Positions 1-8,572 of a stretch of 8,572 nt of DNA are shown here, in pieces. The stretch lies in contig CAMLEL010000079.1 of the NCBI GenBank assembly GCA_946478935.1, positions 1 to 8,572 on the forward strand, given 5' to 3'. The notes beneath the pieces are model-generated. The model was given only the letters and a program-made list of their open reading frames with translations. It was not told the origin of the DNA and ran no database searches. Numbering within the stretch: the first letter of the stretch is position 1; each line of letters starts with the position of its first letter. The position numbers were made by a program, and so were the translations under genes. The DNA is from an uncultured Armatimonadota bacterium. GTDB taxonomy: Bacteria; Armatimonadota; Fimbriimonadia; Fimbriimonadales; Fimbriimonadaceae.

Positions 1-1283
1 GATAGTTCTCGAAGTAAGTTTTGAAGCATCTCGGAACCTGCCGAAATGGTTCGCCGGAACAACGACTCTTCACCCTTCAGGGTCTCAACGATCATCTCTT
101 GCCGCTCGATCAGTTCCGAGTAGTGGTGACCCATCGCTTCGACCACTCCTTCGTACACCAAGTGAAAGAAGGGCTCTTCAAAGCCCAGGACACGCTGGCC
201 CTTGAGAACCGCGCGTCGGATCAGGCGACGAAGGACATAACCTCGGCCGGAGTTGCCCGGCAATACGCCGTCAGCGATGCAGAAGCAGGCAGTCCGAATG
301 TGATCGGCAATGATGCGGGCCGCTGTATCCTTTTGCGGTTCAAGACCATAGACGAACTTAACCCCGGGTGGAAGGGAGTTGAGCGGCTTGCCCCCAAACT
401 GAAGGCTAGTGGGGTTGCCGATCTCCTCGATCTTCTGGATAATTGGCTGGAACGCGTCGGTGTCGTAAACGCTCTTGAACCCTCCCAACACCGCCGCCGT
501 GCGCTCCAGGCCCATGCCGGTATCCACGGACTGGAAGGGAAGTGACGGCATGCCCGTTTTGCGAAACCCATCGGAAGGACGCTCGGGATTCTTCAACTCA
601 CCCTGCCACTCGAATTGGATGAACACGTCGTTCCAAATTTCGAGCCAGTTCTTGGCGGCATCATCTTTGAGCCAATCCTCACGTGTGTAGCCCTCCTGTG
701 GTGGAGGCGCATCGGAGGTCCAGAAGAACATCTCTGAGTTGGGTCCGCAAGGCCCCGGAGGTCCGTTCGAGAAGGCTCCCGCGGGCCAGTAATTGGTTTC
801 TTCGCCCAAGCGAAACACGCGGTAGGTCGCGTCGATGCCGACCGAGGCGAAGTGCTCCTTCCAGTAGCCGTAGGTCTCGTCGTCCTCTTCAAAAACCGTA
901 AAGCTGAGGCGCTGAGGATCCAAGCCGAGCCATTCCGGCGAAGTCAGAAACTCCCAGGAATAGGCGATCGCTTCCTTTTTGAAGTAGTCCCCAAACGAGA
1001 AGTTGCCGAGCATCTCAAAGAAGGTCAGGTGGCTGAGATTGCCCACATCTTCGATGTCGCCGGTGCGGACGCACTTCTGGGCGGTCGTCAGGCGTTTGTT
1101 GGGTGGTTCGGCGATGCCTCGAAAGTACGGCTTGAACTGCACCATTCCGGCGCCGTTAAAGAGCAGACTCTCGTCGAGTCGGCCGGTCACATCGACAGGA
1201 ATCAGTGAGCCCGAGGGAAAGACATCGTGTCCCTTGGACTTGAAGAATTGAAGGTACTTTTCACGCAGTTCGCGAACCGTCAT
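1..1283 (-). CDS. alaS: alanine--tRNA ligase (AlaRS), N-terminal part; 3' end outside the window
   Basis: AlaRS charges tRNA-Ala with alanine in the cytoplasm. Reading the minus strand from ATG at 1283 gives 427 open codons to the window edge, so only the aminoacylation domain and the start of the tRNA-binding region are present. The editing domain with its HxxxH/CxxxH zinc site and the C-Ala domain would lie outside. Visible landmarks are an N-terminal MTVRELREKYLQFFKSKGH (typical AlaRS start), QKCVRTGDIEDVGN near residues 70-82, FFEMLGNFSFGDYF at 88-101, GPPGPCGPNSEMFF at 174-187, the motif-3 sequence SVDTGMGLER at 252-261, and ADHIRTACFCIADGV followed by RGYVLRRLIRRAV at 326-359. The usual GPCSE core reads GPNSE here, and residues about 190-245 form a longer loop than in the E. 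coli enzyme. The start has no Shine-Dalgarno sequence. It lies 63 nt downstream of the SGNH gene on the same strand. Confidence 0.96.
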   Translation of the reverse strand, partial: MTVRELREKYLQFFKSKGHDVFPSGSLIPVDVTGRLDESLLFNGAGMVQFKPYFRGIAEPPNKRLTTAQKCVRTGDIEDVGNLSHLTFFEMLGNFSFGDYFKKEAIAYSWEFLTSPEWLGLDPQRLSFTVFEEDDETYGYWKEHFASVGIDATYRVFRLGEETNYWPAGAFSNGPPGPCGPNSEMFFWTSDAPPPQEGYTREDWLKDDAAKNWLEIWNDVFIQFEWQGELKNPERPSDGFRKTGMPSLPFQSVDTGMGLERTAAVLGGFKSVYDTDAFQPIIQKIEEIGNPTSLQFGGKPLNSLPPGVKFVYGLEPQKDTAARIIADHIRTACFCIADGVLPGNSGRGYVLRRLIRRAVLKGQRVLGFEEPFFHLVYEGVVEAMGHHYSELIERQEMIVETLKGEESLFRRTISAGSEMLQNLLREL

Positions 1284-1322
1284 CGAAGCGTATAGGGTAC
1301 CAGCCCGCCTCTGGTTCTCCAA
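1284..1322 (-). promoter_or_regulatory. putative short-leader promoter of alaS
   Basis: On the minus strand, TTGGAG (1317-1322) and TACCCT (1294-1299) are separated by exactly 17 bp, and the -10-like box ends 10 nt before the alaS ATG. No Shine-Dalgarno-like sequence lies between them. The boxes match the sigma-70 consensus only partly (TTG and TANNNT), so this rests on the spacing and on the same arrangement before the neighbouring gene. If real, the leader would be only a few nucleotides long. Confidence 0.35.
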
Positions 1323-2452: not shown

Positions 2453-2464
2453 AGTTCATGAACT
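2453..2464. promoter_or_regulatory. 12-bp palindrome spanning the first start codon of the operon
   Basis: AGTTCATGAACT is a perfect palindrome, and the ATG of the small gene (2458-2460) lies at its centre. It sits 2 nt beyond the right arm of the inverted repeat. It could be an operator half-site pair or a structure over the start codon. It may also be chance, since a palindrome of this length is not rare. Confidence 0.3.
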
Positions 2465-2628
2465 CTTTGCCGCTTGTGCACCTCGCGTATCTGGATGGTG
2501 GGTCTGGAAGCATGATCTTCCAAATCGTTATCGCCTCAGTCCTTTCCCTTGGGTACATCGTGAAGACGCAATGGGCCAATCTGCGCGCCATTGTTCAAGT
2601 GAATCGGAAAGACCGCACTCAAGAATAA
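2458..2628 (+). CDS. small single-pass membrane protein with YLDGGSGS motif
   Basis: A 56-aa open reading frame, too short for many gene callers. It reads MNSLPLVHLAYLDGGSGS at the N terminus, then a hydrophobic stretch from about residue 19 to 35 (MIFQIVIASVLSLGYIV), then a basic, polar tail. The AYLDxGSGS-plus-hydrophobic-helix layout resembles small proteins (usually with YLDPGTGS/YLDPGSGS) that I recall beside sulfatase-like membrane enzymes in surface-polysaccharide loci. Their function is not established to my knowledge. Its TAA overlaps the ATG of the methyltransferase gene as TAATG, which supports both as real and coupled. ATG 2458 is the only usual start codon after the in-frame stop at 2431. 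There is no Shine-Dalgarno sequence. The proline of the usual motif is replaced by glycine here. Confidence 0.72.
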   Translation: MNSLPLVHLAYLDGGSGSMIFQIVIASVLSLGYIVKTQWANLRAIVQVNRKDRTQE

Positions 2629-3992
2629 TGCGCCCGAGGAGGTTAGGGTCCTCTTTTCGCGATCCATCAGGATTCGTTTTTGAAAAAGGTGGTTGCCTTT
2701 TTCGCCATATCGACGCATCTTTTATAGAAGAGTTTCGAGCAGTAGAAAGCTCCAAGTTCTTTCAGCGGTCGGTGGCGGATGGGCACATCGTTGCTCATGC
2801 GCCTGAGCGCACCGAGGCCGATGGAAGCTTGGTGGTGCGTCCGGAGCGAATCCCATTCATTTCATACCCGTATGAATGGTGCTTCAGCCAACTCAAGGAT
2901 GCGGCTCTATTGACGCTCAGGCTTCAAAAGATCGGAATTCAGGAGGGATTCACCCTGAAGGATGCGACGGCGTATAACGTTCAGTTCAGGGGATGCAAGC
3001 CGGTTTTCATCGACACCTTGTCGTTCGAGCGGAGCGTCAATGGAGCGCCCTGGGTTGGCTACCGGCAGTTCTGCCAGCACTTTCTGGCGCCGCTGGCTTT
3101 GATGTCGTACCGAGACGTCCGCATGTCCCTGCTGCTTCGGGCGAACATCGATGGCATCCCGATCGACCTTGCCTCGCACTTGCTGCCCTTGAGGAGCAAA
3201 AGCAACGTGGGGCTCCTCAGTCACATTCACCTTCATGCGAAGGCGAACGAGCGGCAAGGCGCGGTTATGGAAGTTGGCAGAGGCGTGAGCCTGACCAGTC
3301 AATTGGCTCTGCTGGACAACCTCGAAGGCACGATCGAAAAGCTGCAAATGCCCAAGCGACAGTCCACCTGGTCGAACTATTACGACGATACGAGTTATTC
3401 GGACAGCTCAATCCGCGAAAAGGAGGCGATCGTGGCCGAGCTGCTGCCGAGGGCCGCCAAAGCGGGCCAGACTTGCTGGGATTTCGGAGGTAATACCGGC
3501 AGGTTCAGCCGAATCGCACTCGATGCCGGCCTCAAGGTGATCATGTGGGATTTCGACCATGTCGCGGTTGACACGGCCTATCGAGAGGCAAAAAGTACGC
3601 AAGCCGATTCATTTCTGCCACTGATACAGGATCTCACGAATCCATCGCCGAGGCTGGGCTGGAACTTGAACGAACGATCTTCGATCAAGGACCGAGGCAA
3701 GCCGGATGTTTTGATGGCGCTGGCGCTGGTTCACCACCTTTGTATTGGGCACTCGACACCATTAGAGTTGATTGCCGAGTTCTTCTCGGAGATTGCGGAC
3801 CATCTCATCATCGAATTTGTGCCGCCCGAGGATCCCCAGGTCAAACGGATGATGCACGCCCGAAGCGAAAAAGTACACGCCTACGACCGGTCGAGCTTTG
3901 AGCAGGCGTTTGGTGAGTTCTATCGCGTTGAAGCTCAGCGAAACGTAGGGGACTCTGGTCGAATTCTTTATTTGTTTGCGAAAACGGAATGA
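2628..3992 (+). CDS. two-part protein: kinase-like N-terminal half and class I SAM-dependent methyltransferase (NoeA-like)
   Basis: A 454-aa cytosolic protein. The C-terminal half is a Rossmann-fold methyltransferase: motif I WDFGGNTGRFS near residues 284-294, the acidic ribose-binding end of strand 2 (WDFD, 307-310), and ALALVHHL near 364-371. The N-terminal half matches what I recall of proteins annotated as NoeA-related methyltransferases: RDPSGFVF near the start, PYEWCFSQLKDAALLTL, then TLKDATAYNVQF and PVFIDTLSFE. The last two carry Asp112, Asn117 and Asp129 with kinase-like spacing. I chose ATG 2628 because the conserved region begins a few residues later and the codon overlaps the stop of the small gene upstream. 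The frame is open back to a TTG at 2439, but that would add 63 poorly conserved-looking residues and overlap the small gene completely. The 3' end overlaps the next gene by ATGA. The substrate is unknown; a glycan or lipid-linked intermediate is inferred from context. Confidence 0.88.
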   Translation: MRPRRLGSSFRDPSGFVFEKGGCLFRHIDASFIEEFRAVESSKFFQRSVADGHIVAHAPERTEADGSLVVRPERIPFISYPYEWCFSQLKDAALLTLRLQKIGIQEGFTLKDATAYNVQFRGCKPVFIDTLSFERSVNGAPWVGYRQFCQHFLAPLALMSYRDVRMSLLLRANIDGIPIDLASHLLPLRSKSNVGLLSHIHLHAKANERQGAVMEVGRGVSLTSQLALLDNLEGTIEKLQMPKRQSTWSNYYDDTSYSDSSIREKEAIVAELLPRAAKAGQTCWDFGGNTGRFSRIALDAGLKVIMWDFDHVAVDTAYREAKSTQADSFLPLIQDLTNPSPRLGWNLNERSSIKDRGKPDVLMALALVHHLCIGHSTPLELIAEFFSEIADHLIIEFVPPEDPQVKRMMHARSEKVHAYDRSSFEQAFGEFYRVEAQRNVGDSGRILYLFAKTE

Positions 3993-5485
3993 AGTTTTTG
4001 AAGAAACTCTATCCCGTGCTCTTGAGCGCATACCCGCTGCTGTCACTATACTCAGCGAATCAATCTCTGCTGCCCATGAACGAATTGATTCGCCCGTTGG
4101 TTATATGGGCCTGTCTGTCTGTTCTCTTGACGCTACTACTCAATCTATTGACGAAGGATTACGCCAAAGCTTCAGTTGGGGTATCAGCGGTACTTGTTTC
4201 GATGCTGACGTACTCGGCATGGTCTGAGTGGCTTCCAGTTATACTGGACAGTCCACTCTATGTTGTTATCTGGGCGGTTGTGACACTATTGGGAGCAACT
4301 CTGCTGATGCGATTCTGGCGTTGGCATACAGCATTGGCTATATTTGCCGGCGCACTATGCCTCATGGCGATTGGATCGATCGTCGGCGCAGGGGTATCAC
4401 GCAGTGATCGAACCGAAGCCACAGAACTGGACCGCACAGATGCTCGACCCGATGAACATCATCCCGACATCATCTACATCATTTTAGACGGATATGGGCG
4501 AAGCGATGTATTCGAGGAAATGTACGATTTCTCAGACAAGGATTTTCTAGCTGCTTTGAGCAAGCGCGGATTCAAAACTGCAACACAGGCACATGCCAAT
4601 TATTGTCAAACGGAACTTTCTATTTCAAGTTCGTTAAATTTGGATTATGTCCAGAGTCTAAGCTCAATCACAAAGTCAAATGAACGCCCGTCCTTTCAGA
4701 CCGCGATCAATGATAATGCTCTATTGAAGTATCTGCGTGAAAAGGAATATGAGTTCACGTATATCGGAACGGGGTTTCCGCCCCTGCAATTTACCGATGC
4801 GGGACAATCGTACGGTCGGAAGGGACTTGGATTGTTCGAAATCCTGTTGATTCAGAAAACTCCGTTTCGATCGTTGCTGGAGGGACCACTATCACAGTTC
4901 GAGACCAGGCGACGTCTGATCGACGATGCCTTCCAAAAACTCGGAAACGTTCGATTCCGGCAAAAAGGACCAAGATTTACATTTGCCCATATTCTTGCGC
5001 CCCATCCGCCGTTCGTCTTTGGACCAAACGGAGAAAAACGTCTTCCGAAATACGCATATGGTTTTTGGGATGGAAGCGACTATATGCGAGTGGCGGGAAG
5101 TCAGGAGAGTTATCGATTAGGTTACCGAGACCAGAGCCAGCATATTGCGAAGAAGGTTTTGGCTGCGGTGGACGAGATTCTCAAGCAATACAAAGAGCCA
5201 CCGATCATCTTGATTCAGGGTGATCATGGGCCGAAGCTCGGACTCGATCAATCGAGTTTGGAAAGCACCAACATTCACGAGTGTTTTCCAATCCTGAGTA
5301 CCTACCTGGGGCCACCTCAATTGTTGGCCGAGATCTATCCGGACATGACACCCGTCAACAGCTTTCGAACCATTTTGCGCGTGGTTTTTGGAGAATCTCT
5401 CCAGAACCTTCCGGATAGGAGTTGGTATTCGACATTCGGACGACCTTTGGAGTTCACAGAGGTGACTGACCGGCTGAAGAAGTAA
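3989..5485 (+). CDS. membrane-anchored sulfatase/alkaline-phosphatase-superfamily protein (LTA-synthase-like)
   Basis: A 498-aa protein with about five hydrophobic segments (near residues 5-23, 34-54, 61-76, 88-108 and 113-136), followed by a large extracytoplasmic domain. That domain has the alkaline-phosphatase superfamily layout: PDIIYIILDGYGRSD (159-173, metal-binding Asp167), NYCQTELSISSSLN (204-217, with Thr208 the likely nucleophile by analogy to LTA synthase), ILAPHPPFVF (335-344, His339) and LIQGDHGPK (408-416, metal ligands Asp412 and His413). Relatives hydrolyse or transfer phospho- or sulfo-groups, for example phosphoglycerol onto surface polymers; which of these applies here is inference. 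The ATG overlaps the upstream TGA as ATGA, so translation is probably coupled. The gene is visibly more AT-rich, with different codon choice, than alaS or the ankyrin gene, which suggests it was acquired horizontally. Confidence 0.92.
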   Translation: MKFLKKLYPVLLSAYPLLSLYSANQSLLPMNELIRPLVIWACLSVLLTLLLNLLTKDYAKASVGVSAVLVSMLTYSAWSEWLPVILDSPLYVVIWAVVTLLGATLLMRFWRWHTALAIFAGALCLMAIGSIVGAGVSRSDRTEATELDRTDARPDEHHPDIIYIILDGYGRSDVFEEMYDFSDKDFLAALSKRGFKTATQAHANYCQTELSISSSLNLDYVQSLSSITKSNERPSFQTAINDNALLKYLREKEYEFTYIGTGFPPLQFTDAGQSYGRKGLGLFEILLIQKTPFRSLLEGPLSQFETRRRLIDDAFQKLGNVRFRQKGPRFTFAHILAPHPPFVFGPNGEKRLPKYAYGFWDGSDYMRVAGSQESYRLGYRDQSQHIAKKVLAAVDEILKQYKEPPIILIQGDHGPKLGLDQSSLESTNIHECFPILSTYLGPPQLLAEIYPDMTPVNSFRTILRVVFGESLQNLPDRSWYSTFGRPLEFTEVTDRLKK

Positions 5486-5496
5486 ATTGAAATGCC

Positions 5497-6984
5497 ATGC
5501 GCGAGATCGATCGCCAAATTTTTGAAGCGGCCCGAGAGGGATATGCGGCCAGGGTTACCGAACTCGTGGCGGGCGGCGCCAGCGTGGATGCCCGACATCC
5601 GGCATACTGCGACCACGGTGCATTCCTGGTTGACTTCACGCCCTTGATGTGGGCAGCCGCGAGTCCAAGATCCAATGCGGCCACGGTGAGAGCCCTGCTC
5701 TCGGCAGGATCCGATGTATTCACGGTTTCGGCCGGCGAAGTGACGGCGCTTTTCTACGCGGCGGGTGGAGTCACCCACTATCCACCGACTCCTGAGTACC
5801 TTTCGAAACTGCCACCAGATCATCCATTTTTGGATTGGGGTGGCGGTGACGCCGAACGGCTGCGTCTCATTCTCGATGCCGGAGCGAACCCCAGCGAGTT
5901 TGCAAACAATGGCCGGACGTCGGTGGGTGAAGCGGCTTCGATCGGAGATCCTGAGAGATTGCGCTTACTGATCGAGCGCGGCGCTTCCGTTTGGCCAGTT
6001 CCGGCCAAGAACCGAGCCCGGTGGCCGAAGGAGTTCGAGATTCCGGAATTGGAGCGCGATCGGACGAACGAGCAGTTCGAAACCTACGCGGTTCCCCTCT
6101 TTCAAGCCGCGCAGAGTGGCAGCGCAGATTGCGTTCAACTTATTTTAGAAGCGGGATTTCCTGCCGACTTTATCTGCCAGGGCGAAAACGCTTTGGACCA
6201 TGCCGCAAGCGTGGAAGTGGTCGAGGCCCTGTGGAATGCCGGGGCGCGAATGGGACCTGGCCGGTTCAGCTTTGATGCGGTAGACGAAGCGTTCGAAGAT
6301 GAGAAATACGCCGTTGCCCAATTTCTCATCGATCAATTCCCGGATTCTGAGCGAGCGCATTACATCAATGAAAAACTGATGACGTGTTCAGGGGTGCGAA
6401 TGAACCCGCACGCCGTTCGCATCCTTCTCGGAATGGGTGCCGACCCGAACTATCTAAGCAAAGACCTGGGCACTCCATTGACTTGGTGCTGCTGGCAGGG
6501 AGACGGGAATGGTGGACGCGAAAACGAGGTGGTGTTGGAGACCCTGGGCATCTTATTGGAGGCGGGAGCAGACGTAAACAAAGGGACCCGAAGAGGGTTA
6601 TATCCAATCCACGAAGCGGTCGATGGAGACTGGGGATCGCCCTCGTCCGTCCGAGTTTTGATCGAGCATGGCGCAGACTTGAACGTCCGTGATGAAGGCG
6701 GCAATACGGCGCTGATGCTCGCAGCCAACCGTGGCGAGGTCCGATGTATATCTCTACTATTGGCAGCAGGAGCTGACCGGACCTTGAGAAACAAACGTAA
6801 GAAAACTGCCCTGGATACTGCGCAGGATCACATGAAGGTGTGGAAAGGCATCGTCAAGCGGCCGCCCAAAATGGTTTCGAAGTTCATGAAGAAGATCGGC
6901 ATCGATCACGAGGCCATGGCGGAATCTCACCAAAAGGCGCTCGCCGAAGCCGAAGAAGCCGTAAAGTTATTAAGTGAGTCTTAG
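5497..6984 (+). CDS. ankyrin-repeat protein
   Basis: A 495-aa protein built from about eight to ten ankyrin-like helix-turn-helix repeats, a protein-binding fold. Clear repeats are FTPLMWAAA...VRALLSAGSD (47-73), RLRLILDAGANPSEF (121-135), GRTSVGEAASIGDPERLRLL (139-158), PLFQAAQSGSADCVQLILEA (200-219), VRILLGMGADPNYL (307-320), LGILLEAGADVN (350-361), LYPIHEAV...VRVLIEHGADLNVRD (368-399) and NTALMLAANRGEVRCISLLL (403-422). The repeats are degenerate in the middle and canonical near the end, followed by a charged C-terminal tail (about 445-495) that looks helical. No signal peptide or membrane helix is seen, so it is likely cytosolic. It starts 11 nt after the membrane enzyme's stop, without a clear Shine-Dalgarno sequence, so it may be translated by coupling. 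The binding partner is unknown. Confidence 0.9.
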   Translation: MREIDRQIFEAAREGYAARVTELVAGGASVDARHPAYCDHGAFLVDFTPLMWAAASPRSNAATVRALLSAGSDVFTVSAGEVTALFYAAGGVTHYPPTPEYLSKLPPDHPFLDWGGGDAERLRLILDAGANPSEFANNGRTSVGEAASIGDPERLRLLIERGASVWPVPAKNRARWPKEFEIPELERDRTNEQFETYAVPLFQAAQSGSADCVQLILEAGFPADFICQGENALDHAASVEVVEALWNAGARMGPGRFSFDAVDEAFEDEKYAVAQFLIDQFPDSERAHYINEKLMTCSGVRMNPHAVRILLGMGADPNYLSKDLGTPLTWCCWQGDGNGGRENEVVLETLGILLEAGADVNKGTRRGLYPIHEAVDGDWGSPSSVRVLIEHGADLNVRDEGGNTALMLAANRGEVRCISLLLAAGADRTLRNKRKKTALDTAQDHMKVWKGIVKRPPKMVSKFMKKIGIDHEAMAESHQKALAEAEEAVKLLSES

Positions 6985-6993: not shown

Positions 6994-7700
6994 ATGATCA
7001 GTCTTGTCTTTCTTGCCCTCGTTCCTGCTCAAACCACGGAACTCATCTTCGTCATGCCGAAACGGTGGCAAACGCCACGGGTAGATATAACTCCACGACC
7101 CTGAATGCATTCTCTGAACTTGGAAAATCGCAGGTCACCAAACTAACGGCGCAGTTGCAGCAGATGGAGTTTGATGCCGTGATCGTGAGTCCTTCCCCAA
7201 GGGCGTTGAAGACGGTTGCACCATTTCTTCAGCGAAGCGGGACAAAGGCGGAGATTTGGCCCGAACTCTTGGAATGCTGCCACCAGGATGGAGCAGAGAG
7301 GAACTGGCCCGCATCCCCGCAGGTTAGGTTCGGTCCGAAGATCGAATGGCACTCGAGCTTGAATGGGATCTTCAATCTGCGTCCCGATGGCCAACGATTG
7401 ATCGATGCACCAACCTACAACGATGGCCTGCGGCAGGTCGACCTGGCCGTCAAGCGAATCAAGCAGACATGGTCAAATTCTGGGAAGCGAGTGCTGATTG
7501 TGGGGCACTCCATCCACGGCGGGATGCTGATCAGAAAGCTTTCTGGCGGGAGCAAGGTTGCGCTGGAGAATGCCGTGCCCGTGCATCTGGAAGAGAAGGA
7601 GTCAGGCGTCTTTAAGATCAAGCCTGCCGATTATCCGGTTATGGTGCGCGGGAAAGGACTCGAACCTTCACGCCTTGTGGGCACTACCACCTCAAGGTAG
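6994..7700 (+). pseudogene. secreted histidine-phosphatase family protein, frameshifted at the catalytic RH motif
   Basis: Starting at ATG 6994, frame one encodes a signal-peptide-like MISLVFLALVPAQ followed by TTELIFV, the expected first strand of a histidine phosphatase. That frame then stops early, at a TGA near 7099. The catalytic motif CGT CAT GCC GAA ACG (RHAET, 7050-7064) is in another frame that stays open to 7700. The sequence TTCGTCAT would read correctly as TTC GTC CGT CAT, so one CGTC copy of a tandem pair appears lost; a one-base loss giving LIFRHAET is an alternative. The second frame holds the rest of the family: SPSPRALKTVAPFLQ, WPELLE and VLIVGHSIHGGMLIRKL. Its only start after the stop at 6975 is GTG 7065, which omits the catalytic His, so a protein made from there should be inactive. 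The final 19 codons or so lie on the antisense strand of the tRNA-Leu gene. A sequencing error cannot be excluded. Confidence 0.78.
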
Positions 7701-7727
7701 CGCGTCTACCAATTTCGCCACCCGCGC
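7642..7727 (-). tRNA. tRNA-Leu, anticodon GAG
   Basis: On the minus strand the acceptor GCGCGGG (7727-7721) pairs with CCCGCGC (7652-7646), followed by discriminator A (7645) and an encoded CCA (7644-7642). The anticodon arm CTACC-TTGAGGT-GGTAG places GAG at positions 34-36, reading CUC and CUU. The long variable arm (GCC...GGC stem) marks a type II tRNA, as expected for leucine. The T arm GAAGG-TTCGAGT-CCTTT pairs with one G-U. The D loop AAATTGGTAGA carries the usual GG. All arms look intact and functional. Confidence 0.97.
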
Positions 7728-7778: not shown

Positions 7779-8572
7779 CTATTTCAGGAGCATCGGCATA
7801 AACACGCCTCCCACGACGGATCGCGCCTGGAACCCGGCCTGCTTGCCGCTGTCGGTGTAGTACCAATCAGTCAGGGGAACGCGGCTGGTTGTCTCGTTCA
7901 TCCACTTCCAAATGGGTCTCATGTGCCTATCGAATTCCGCGCGCGAGTCCGTCAGGCAAGCGGTCCAGACGCACCAATCGAGCTTGGTATAGGTGCTGCG
8001 GTTGTCCAGCGGGAGCCCGTATTTGCCGATCCGCTTTTGATAGGATGCCAACTCTTTGGTGTAAACGTCCTTCGGGAAGAGTTTCAGGTCCAGCACCTTG
8101 TCCCAAATCAGGTTGTATTTTTGGCTCCAAGTGCCCGGCTTGTCGAAGGCTAGTCGGAAATGATCGCCGTCGTCTGCCATGCGGGCCCACTCTTTGGCCA
8201 TTGTTTCTGCTTTCCCGCGCAGATCGGATGCCCTCTTTGTTGCCTTGGGGTCCAGCATTGGAAGCGCTTTGGCGTAGGCGGCCAGGGCAACAATCGCTTT
8301 TAACGAGAGATTGGCGTTATGCGCGAGATGACCGGCAAAGTCGTCTGTGCAAAGCTGGTTCTCGGGGTCCATGCCCTTTGATAGGAGGTAATCGGCCCAC
8401 TTGTCCAACAGGGGTTTGTATTGGGCAACGAAGGGTCGATGCTCGTCATGTTCGGCCAAAGCTGAGGCAAGAATCAGCATGTTGCCGCACTCTTCCACCG
8501 GCATTTGGTTCTCTTCGGTTTTTTCGCCTCCGCCATAGACCTGGCCATTGGCGAGCGGATACTGACCGAGGT
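7779..8572 (-). CDS. glutaminase A-like protein (GtaA / DUF4965 family), C-terminal part; 5' end outside the window
   Basis: The 3' portion, 263 codons plus TAG, of a large hydrolase-like protein that runs in from the right edge. The most telling stretch, at the window edge, reads LGQYPLANGQVYGG, then EKTEENQMPVEECGNMLIL, the conserved core of the GtaA six-hairpin (DUF4965) family. Other family-like stretches are KWADYLLSKGMDP, FAGHLAHNANLSLKAIVAL, TWSQKYNLIWDKVL, YGLPLDNRSTYTKLDWCVW, VPLTDWYYTDSGK and a final QARSVVGGVFMPMLLK. Fungal GtaA is an extracellular glutaminase; in bacteria the substrate is not established, and the fold resembles six-hairpin glycosidases. The first ATG visible (8504) is internal, not the start, since homology continues upstream to the edge. 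A signal peptide is expected but would be out of view. The gene lies convergent to the phosphatase remnant. Confidence 0.9.
   Translation of the reverse strand, partial: LGQYPLANGQVYGGGEKTEENQMPVEECGNMLILASALAEHDEHRPFVAQYKPLLDKWADYLLSKGMDPENQLCTDDFAGHLAHNANLSLKAIVALAAYAKALPMLDPKATKRASDLRGKAETMAKEWARMADDGDHFRLAFDKPGTWSQKYNLIWDKVLDLKLFPKDVYTKELASYQKRIGKYGLPLDNRSTYTKLDWCVWTACLTDSRAEFDRHMRPIWKWMNETTSRVPLTDWYYTDSGKQAGFQARSVVGGVFMPMLLK

Follow-up and report, generated by a model that had tools for sequence, protein, structure and literature searches.

Three overlapping genes, encoding a single-helix membrane microprotein, a NoeA-type kinase-like/methyltransferase protein and a NoeB-like membrane protein of the alkaline phosphatase (AlkP)/sulfatase superfamily, were found in an 8,572-nt stretch of DNA (hereafter the window; contig CAMLEL010000079.1) from an uncultured Armatimonadota bacterium of the Fimbriimonadaceae. 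We consider it somewhat probable that they form a general bacterial envelope-modification module, of which the Sinorhizobium nodL-(small gene)-noeA-noeB unit would be one derived form and which would combine a cytosolic modification, a transfer outside the membrane and coupling by the microprotein. We observed homology of the enzymes to NoeA and NoeB, a gene order like that of pSymA, a largely shared inheritance in the samples tested and conserved candidate catalytic residues. The original prediction, made from the sequence alone, had described an uncharacterised cassette of three overlapping genes at 2458-5485; the coordinates and the TAATG and ATGA overlaps were confirmed in the sequence, but the description overlooked the NoeA/NoeB family, the conserved neighbourhood of which is printed in the main text of PMC9758233.

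Sinorhizobium NoeA aligned with the window protein over its full length with 173 identities in 471 positions (37%), both halves being in the same order, and has the same kinase-like letters R, D, N and D. NoeB aligned to the AlkP family with an hhalign probability of 98.6 over 286 columns, and a single-pair BLASTP comparison gave an E value of 5e-6. Furthermore, a tblastn search of plasmids returned 65 records, 57 of them from Sinorhizobium; among the 40 records listed, four (H10, H15, H35 and H36) were annotated NoeA and most others had no gene listed there. On pSymA of strain ml66, nodL is followed by a gene for a 71-aa 'hypothetical protein', then by noeA and noeB. The 71-aa frame (3766-3981 in both L093 and L094) encodes a signal peptide followed by AHA-YLDPGTGS, overlaps the annotated start of noeA by 23 nt and, with its YLDPGTGS motif, is also present in S. 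meliloti strain 1021. The window unit, with its AlkP-fold gene downstream on the same strand, resembles the S. meliloti unit in its gene families and their order, but nodL has no counterpart in the window and NoeB is much diverged from the window AlkP protein. In the portions of the literature covered here, the operon is written nodL-noeA-noeB and the 71-aa gene is unnamed. The pSymA unit is described as flavonoid-inducible (PMC9048898), and a natural S. meliloti strain carrying a truncated noeA failed to nodulate 17 of 27 M. truncatula genotypes; the authors of that study suggest that noeA may be the reason (PMC4053727).

The kinase-methyltransferase family has also been described in a kinase survey published in 2022 (PMC9758233), as a Lani_1194-type family of about two thousand homologues, 94% of which have a methyltransferase domain. 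Among 816 neighbourhoods, two conserved neighbours were reported there, one present in 65% and the other, predicted to have an alkaline phosphatase fold, in 38%. Compared by description, the family has the same kinase and methyltransferase domain pair as the window protein; its authors called it functionally uncharacterised and discussed a possible secreted effector, in contrast to the envelope-type module proposed here. The main text of PMC9758233 is silent on whether the more frequent of these neighbours is the microprotein. Our limited search of the literature, which covered running text of PMC9758233 and PMC10117765 among others, found no published statement of the microprotein as a third component or a member of the noe operon, and PMC13390465 was unrelated to the module. 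Because the enzymes are homologues of NoeA and NoeB and conserved neighbours of the family are already in print (PMC9758233), the module is not wholly new. Our addition is the microprotein as its near-constant third part, also present, unnamed, between nodL and noeA on pSymA.

Gene linkage and shared inheritance

Linkage was surveyed in the best 80 of at least 570 confirmed homologues of the methyltransferase gene, taken from genome contigs; record titles among the matches listed place the module in about 20 phylum-level groups. Using a microprotein profile, we found the small gene directly upstream of the methyltransferase gene in 67 of the 80 loci (two of these small genes, in L003 and L046, lack a regular motif) and elsewhere within the locus in nine more. 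Three of the remaining four loci (L034, L042 and L045) begin less than 300 nt from the methyltransferase gene, at the start of the contig. The fourth (L075) contains no small gene, and the same genome carries one beside an unlinked AlkP gene (L083). The small and methyltransferase genes overlap in 56 of the 67 adjacent pairs, counted from the in-frame start nearest the stop of the small gene, a choice that favours closeness. In 61 loci, an AlkP-like open reading frame (ORF) on one strand or the other is no more than 1.5 kb away. Some of the other 19 loci stop at a contig edge, and 11 of the 12 genomes searched among these carry an AlkP-like gene somewhere. The order small gene, methyltransferase gene, AlkP gene was kept on a single strand in 40 of the 80 loci, which bears out the original prediction of a compact unit.

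Variants of this arrangement were also seen. Two tandem AlkP-like genes follow the methyltransferase gene in L044, L055, L072 and L080, and a gene that belongs to the YidC/60KD_IMP family, or clusters with it by sequence, is found downstream of the methyltransferase gene in L036; in L041 and L057 it follows the small gene. In L083 and L172, the small gene adjoins an AlkP gene with no methyltransferase gene beside it, on the same strand in the former and facing it in the latter.

Presence and absence were compared in three evenly drawn phylum samples, 495 genomes in total, each centred on a genome chosen for having the module; some rows of the search models came from these centre genomes and from at least one further genome of the samples. 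In the phylum of the Isosphaeraceae genome (148 genomes), the methyltransferase was present in 14 genomes and the small protein in 13, all of them within the 14, and the AlkP profile matched in eight genomes, seven of which also had the methyltransferase. The respective counts for methyltransferase, small protein and both were 4, 5 and 4 in the phylum of the gammaproteobacterial genome (199 genomes) and 4, 3 and 3 in that of the Bacteroidetes genome (148 genomes). Pooled, these give 22, 21 and 20, a co-occurrence with a Fisher p of about 2e-32 (2.5e-28 without the three centre genomes) in a test that ignores kinship. A same-strand small gene was present in the cassette at 21 of the 22 sampled methyltransferase loci, those of G445 and G089 being much diverged (E about 0.001), and by hand count 17 have an AlkP-like gene no more than about 1.5 kb away, which in 15 of them is on the same strand. 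The three families are thus mostly inherited together in the samples tested. Since the small frame is next to the methyltransferase gene in 67 of the 80 loci and co-present in 20 of the 22 methyltransferase genomes, it is a real gene and not a chance frame.

The surroundings of the module were examined in a census of 123 of the 125 nearest outside genes, two long genes being left out for size; its list excluded incomplete ORFs and those below 120 or above 900 aa, and gave the 25 commonest of 139 families. No outside family exceeded 5 of the 123 neighbours, indicating that the module is largely stand-alone, with no fixed pathway around it. The commonest families were methyltransferases and a topoisomerase, the latter contributed by a group of Chloroflexota that have their gene order in common. 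Among the families listed, those of glycosyltransferases had two members each and those of nucleotidyl-transferases two or three; PF00535, a broad family that includes NodC, accounted for two genes. Membership of a polysaccharide cluster is therefore ruled out as a general rule, although single loci with glycan genes nearby do occur (e.g., L096). Furthermore, neither the ORF list nor Pfam revealed a glycosyltransferase or sugar-nucleotide gene in the window. The original description of a stand-alone unit, distinct from a normal polysaccharide cluster and with no such genes nearby, agrees with both results.

Features of the three proteins

A word-based protein search matched only the microprotein itself, and relatives were therefore gathered through genome context; none of the three proteins matched NCBIfam above cut-offs. 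The window microprotein, which had no match in Pfam, NCBIfam or PADLOC, has a single helix preceded by the motif Y-L-D-G-G-S-G-S-MIF-Q and followed by a basic C-terminal tail. The family consensus is Y-L-D-P-G-T-G-S-xxx-Q, and relatives were recognised by Y-L-D-P-G-[TS]-G-S-xxx-Q. Among 102 related ORFs, which include a few genes fetched twice, Tyr was conserved in 101 and Asp and Gln in 100 each, so that the motif is the conserved part of the protein, more tightly kept than the helix. Since both the unit and the small reading frame are conserved, the original prediction encounters neither rare adjacency nor an unconserved small frame. The helix comes after the motif and the tail is basic, and the motif should therefore face outward. 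Of 73 relatives scored, 56 have a segment resembling a signal peptide ahead of the motif; the window protein is short in this region and resembles the 17 scored without such a segment. In 50 of 65 aligned microproteins, Ala immediately precedes the motif Tyr, and cleavage there would make Tyr residue 1 of the mature protein. One small gene (L059, end near 7989) has a long C-terminal extension with a zinc-ribbon-like CxxC pattern.

A close likeness by description is DltX, a tiny single-helix membrane protein encoded at the head of an operon for envelope modification; it likewise has an outer Tyr and works with two enzymes (PMC12148441, PMC5541007). As described in these sources, DltX differs from the microprotein, which would have its N-terminus outside, in having the opposite end outside, another motif and partners of other folds. 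The DltX motif FxYxxF, reported near the C-terminus outside the membrane (PMC12148441), is absent from the window microprotein.

In the C-terminal half of the methyltransferase protein, residues 267-430 resemble Methyltransf_23 below the Pfam cut-off (E 0.001, 19.3 of 27 bits) and show the class I S-adenosylmethionine (SAM) methyltransferase features D285-x-G-x-N-x-G291, D308/D310 and H369-H370. The SAM residues, motif I included, are invariant in all 84 aligned rows, the window's included, as are R26, D112, N117 and D129 of the kinase-like N-terminal half, which were assigned to the kinase residues described in PMC9758233 by pattern and spacing, not by structure. Pfam matched this half at chance level only (one of 31 members matched RIO1, E 0.23). 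WbdD, the chain terminator of the E. coli O9a O-antigen, likewise joins a kinase and a SAM methyltransferase in one polypeptide and acts on a glycan end (PMC3482155). However, its order is methyltransferase, kinase and coiled coil within an O-antigen system, whereas the window protein has the kinase-like part first and lies outside a polysaccharide cluster. The window protein had no sequence match to WbdD among solved structures; the reversed domain order and a flank census without a polysaccharide cluster led us to reject WbdD membership.

The third protein matches PF00884 (Sulfatase; Pfam E 2.4e-8) and has a hydrophobic N-terminus followed by a catalytic domain from about residue 155. A simple hydropathy scan found three strong helices, and the five counted in the original prediction are plausible. 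D167, H339 and D412 were present in all 38 aligned rows, and position 208 was Thr in 37 and Ser in one. From this conservation, Thr208 is the putative nucleophile, and roles for D167, D412 and H413, and for H339, are likewise proposed. Formylglycine sulfatases use a Cys or Ser nucleophile within a C/S-x-P-x-R motif. This motif is absent around T208 in the window protein, which together with the prevalence of Thr at this putative nucleophile position speaks against a formylglycine sulfatase. LtaS/EptA-type phospho-transferases have a membrane anchor, a Thr nucleophile and acidic or His metal ligands, and D167, T208, D412, H413 and the hydrophobic N-terminus are candidates for these features by residue type. 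The closest solved relatives by sequence in the Protein Data Bank (PDB) are sulfatases; the protein had no match to LtaS or EptA there and no named family in NCBIfam. A relative from Singulisphaera carries the annotation 'LTA synthase family protein'. Enzymes of the LtaS/EptA/OpgB type have a membrane N-terminus and an AlkP-fold domain with a Thr nucleophile, as the window protein would have, and the residue pattern would fit the membrane phospho-transferases of the superfamily.

Proposed function and alternatives

In an envelope-modification module of this kind, the NoeA-type protein would phosphorylate and methylate a small or lipid-linked carbohydrate in the cytosol, possibly with the pair of activities found in WbdD in the reverse domain order. 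A putative Thr nucleophile takes the place of the formylglycine Cys in the NoeB-type protein, which would move a phosphate-linked group to an acceptor outside the membrane. The microprotein would span the membrane, with its motif outside and its basic tail inside, and couple both enzymes. Since the bacteria that carry the module differ greatly in their envelopes, a single special polymer, for instance lipopolysaccharide or a Nod factor, is an unlikely acceptor. The chemistry of the original prediction, a phosphorylation or methylation followed by transfer or removal of a group outside the membrane, is not supported as stated.

Several points weigh against the envelope-modification module. Its chemistry and the three-protein complex are steps that we infer, and adjacency of genes does not prove physical coupling. 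The 80 loci, being the closest of at least 570, favour similar arrangements. AlkP partners come from unlike sub-families, and in several loci the partner gene is unlinked or lies on the opposite strand. In the genome samples, G120 has a methyltransferase with neither partner nearby, G270 lacks the methyltransferase and encodes a weakly matching small protein (E 1.9e-5) that faces an AlkP gene, and G043 has an AlkP protein without a methyltransferase. H413 is Glu in 5 of the 38 AlkP rows. Furthermore, the kinase-like half had no sequence match in the PDB, solved kinases included; the proposed kinase fold therefore relies on published family modelling (PMC9758233) and on motif positions.

Three unrelated neighbours overlapping by chance in a compact genome is an explanation refuted by the survey of 80 loci together with the three phylum samples, as the linkage recurs across phyla and presence and absence are coupled. 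A role of the AlkP protein as a hydrolase, trimming phosphate or sulfate from an exported product while the kinase-methyltransferase makes a separate one, would accord with the Pfam name Sulfatase and with sulfatases as nearest solved relatives. We regard it as unlikely, since the likely nucleophile position holds Thr in 37 of 38 rows (Ser in one) instead of the Cys/Ser of formylglycine sulfatases, the membrane-bound Thr members of the superfamily are to our knowledge phospho-transferases, and the parts co-occur. Decoration of secreted Nod-factor-like signalling molecules, as suggested for NoeA and NoeB, draws on the homology to the flavonoid-inducible nodL-noeA-noeB and on published hypotheses (PMC9758233, PMC9048898). 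This seems very improbable for the module as a whole, given its spread over so many phylum-level groups and a flank census in which no Nod-factor-type family, PF00535 included, was prominent. Most groups carrying the module are not known to make Nod factors.

The microprotein could instead be a carrier or acceptor, its outer Tyr (or the Thr/Ser of DPG[TS]GS) taking a group and handing it to or from the AlkP protein, as DltX does for D-alanine. The tight conservation of Tyr, Asp and Gln relative to the helix, the signal-peptide-like starts and the Ala that would leave Tyr as residue 1, and the small genes that adjoin an AlkP gene where the methyltransferase gene is absent or unlinked all speak for such a role, for which DltX provides a precedent (PMC12148441). 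Tyr is, however, replaced by His in the L051 microprotein and by Cys in the diverged L003 frame, which is not among the 102 ORFs; 7 of these 102 have A, V or N where T/S is expected, and the AlkP enzyme appears to have a Thr nucleophile of its own; this, too, strikes us as an unlikely explanation. If true, it would establish a second DltX-like principle, for phosphate-type groups. A bolder version, which we hold to be decidedly doubtful, would make the microprotein the centre of an unnamed class of transmembrane hand-off systems, carrying or receiving, on its mature outer Tyr, a methyl-phosphate-type group made ready by the cytosolic kinase-methyltransferase, for an AlkP-fold transferase to install on the envelope, with noeA-noeB and its unnamed microprotein gene as a symbiotic offshoot.

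For the envelope-modification module that we favor, noeA-noeB as one branch, together with its unnamed small gene, offers laboratory-tractable strains and a three-gene knock-out design. This design also bears on a host-range question raised in 1995, as far as the sources covered here describe it.

The remainder of the window

Positions of the module and of other features in the window.
Feature	Position	Strand	Basis
Alanyl-tRNA synthetase gene, N-terminal part, off left edge	3-1322	-	PF01411, E 6e-113
Microprotein gene, 56 aa	2458..2628	+	ORF list
TAATG stop/start overlap, small gene/methyltransferase gene	2626..2630	+	sequence
NoeA-type kinase-like/methyltransferase gene, 454 aa	2628..3992	+	ORF list
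ATGA start/stop overlap, methyltransferase gene/AlkP gene	3989..3992	+	sequence
NoeB-like membrane AlkP/sulfatase-superfamily gene, 498 aa	3989..5485	+	ORF list, Pfam
Ankyrin-repeat protein gene	5497-6984	+	Pfam
Histidine-phosphatase frame	7065-7700	+	Pfam
tRNA-Leu (GAG)	7642-7727	-	

Pfam also recognised a GDSL lipase gene, a DUF1272 protein gene and a glutaminase piece in the window. Promoter and terminator matches in a scan of the window were no more frequent than in shuffles. A defence system was rejected: the PADLOC matches were weak (mad2 on the methyltransferase part, E 1e-4, and ankyrin-bearing models on the neighbour), and those of the ankyrin protein look like generic ankyrin similarity. 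The tRNA-Leu gene overlaps the 3' end of the opposite-strand histidine-phosphatase frame, which may therefore extend too far. The ankyrin-repeat gene has the same orientation as the AlkP gene, begins 11 nt past its stop and could share a transcript with the module.

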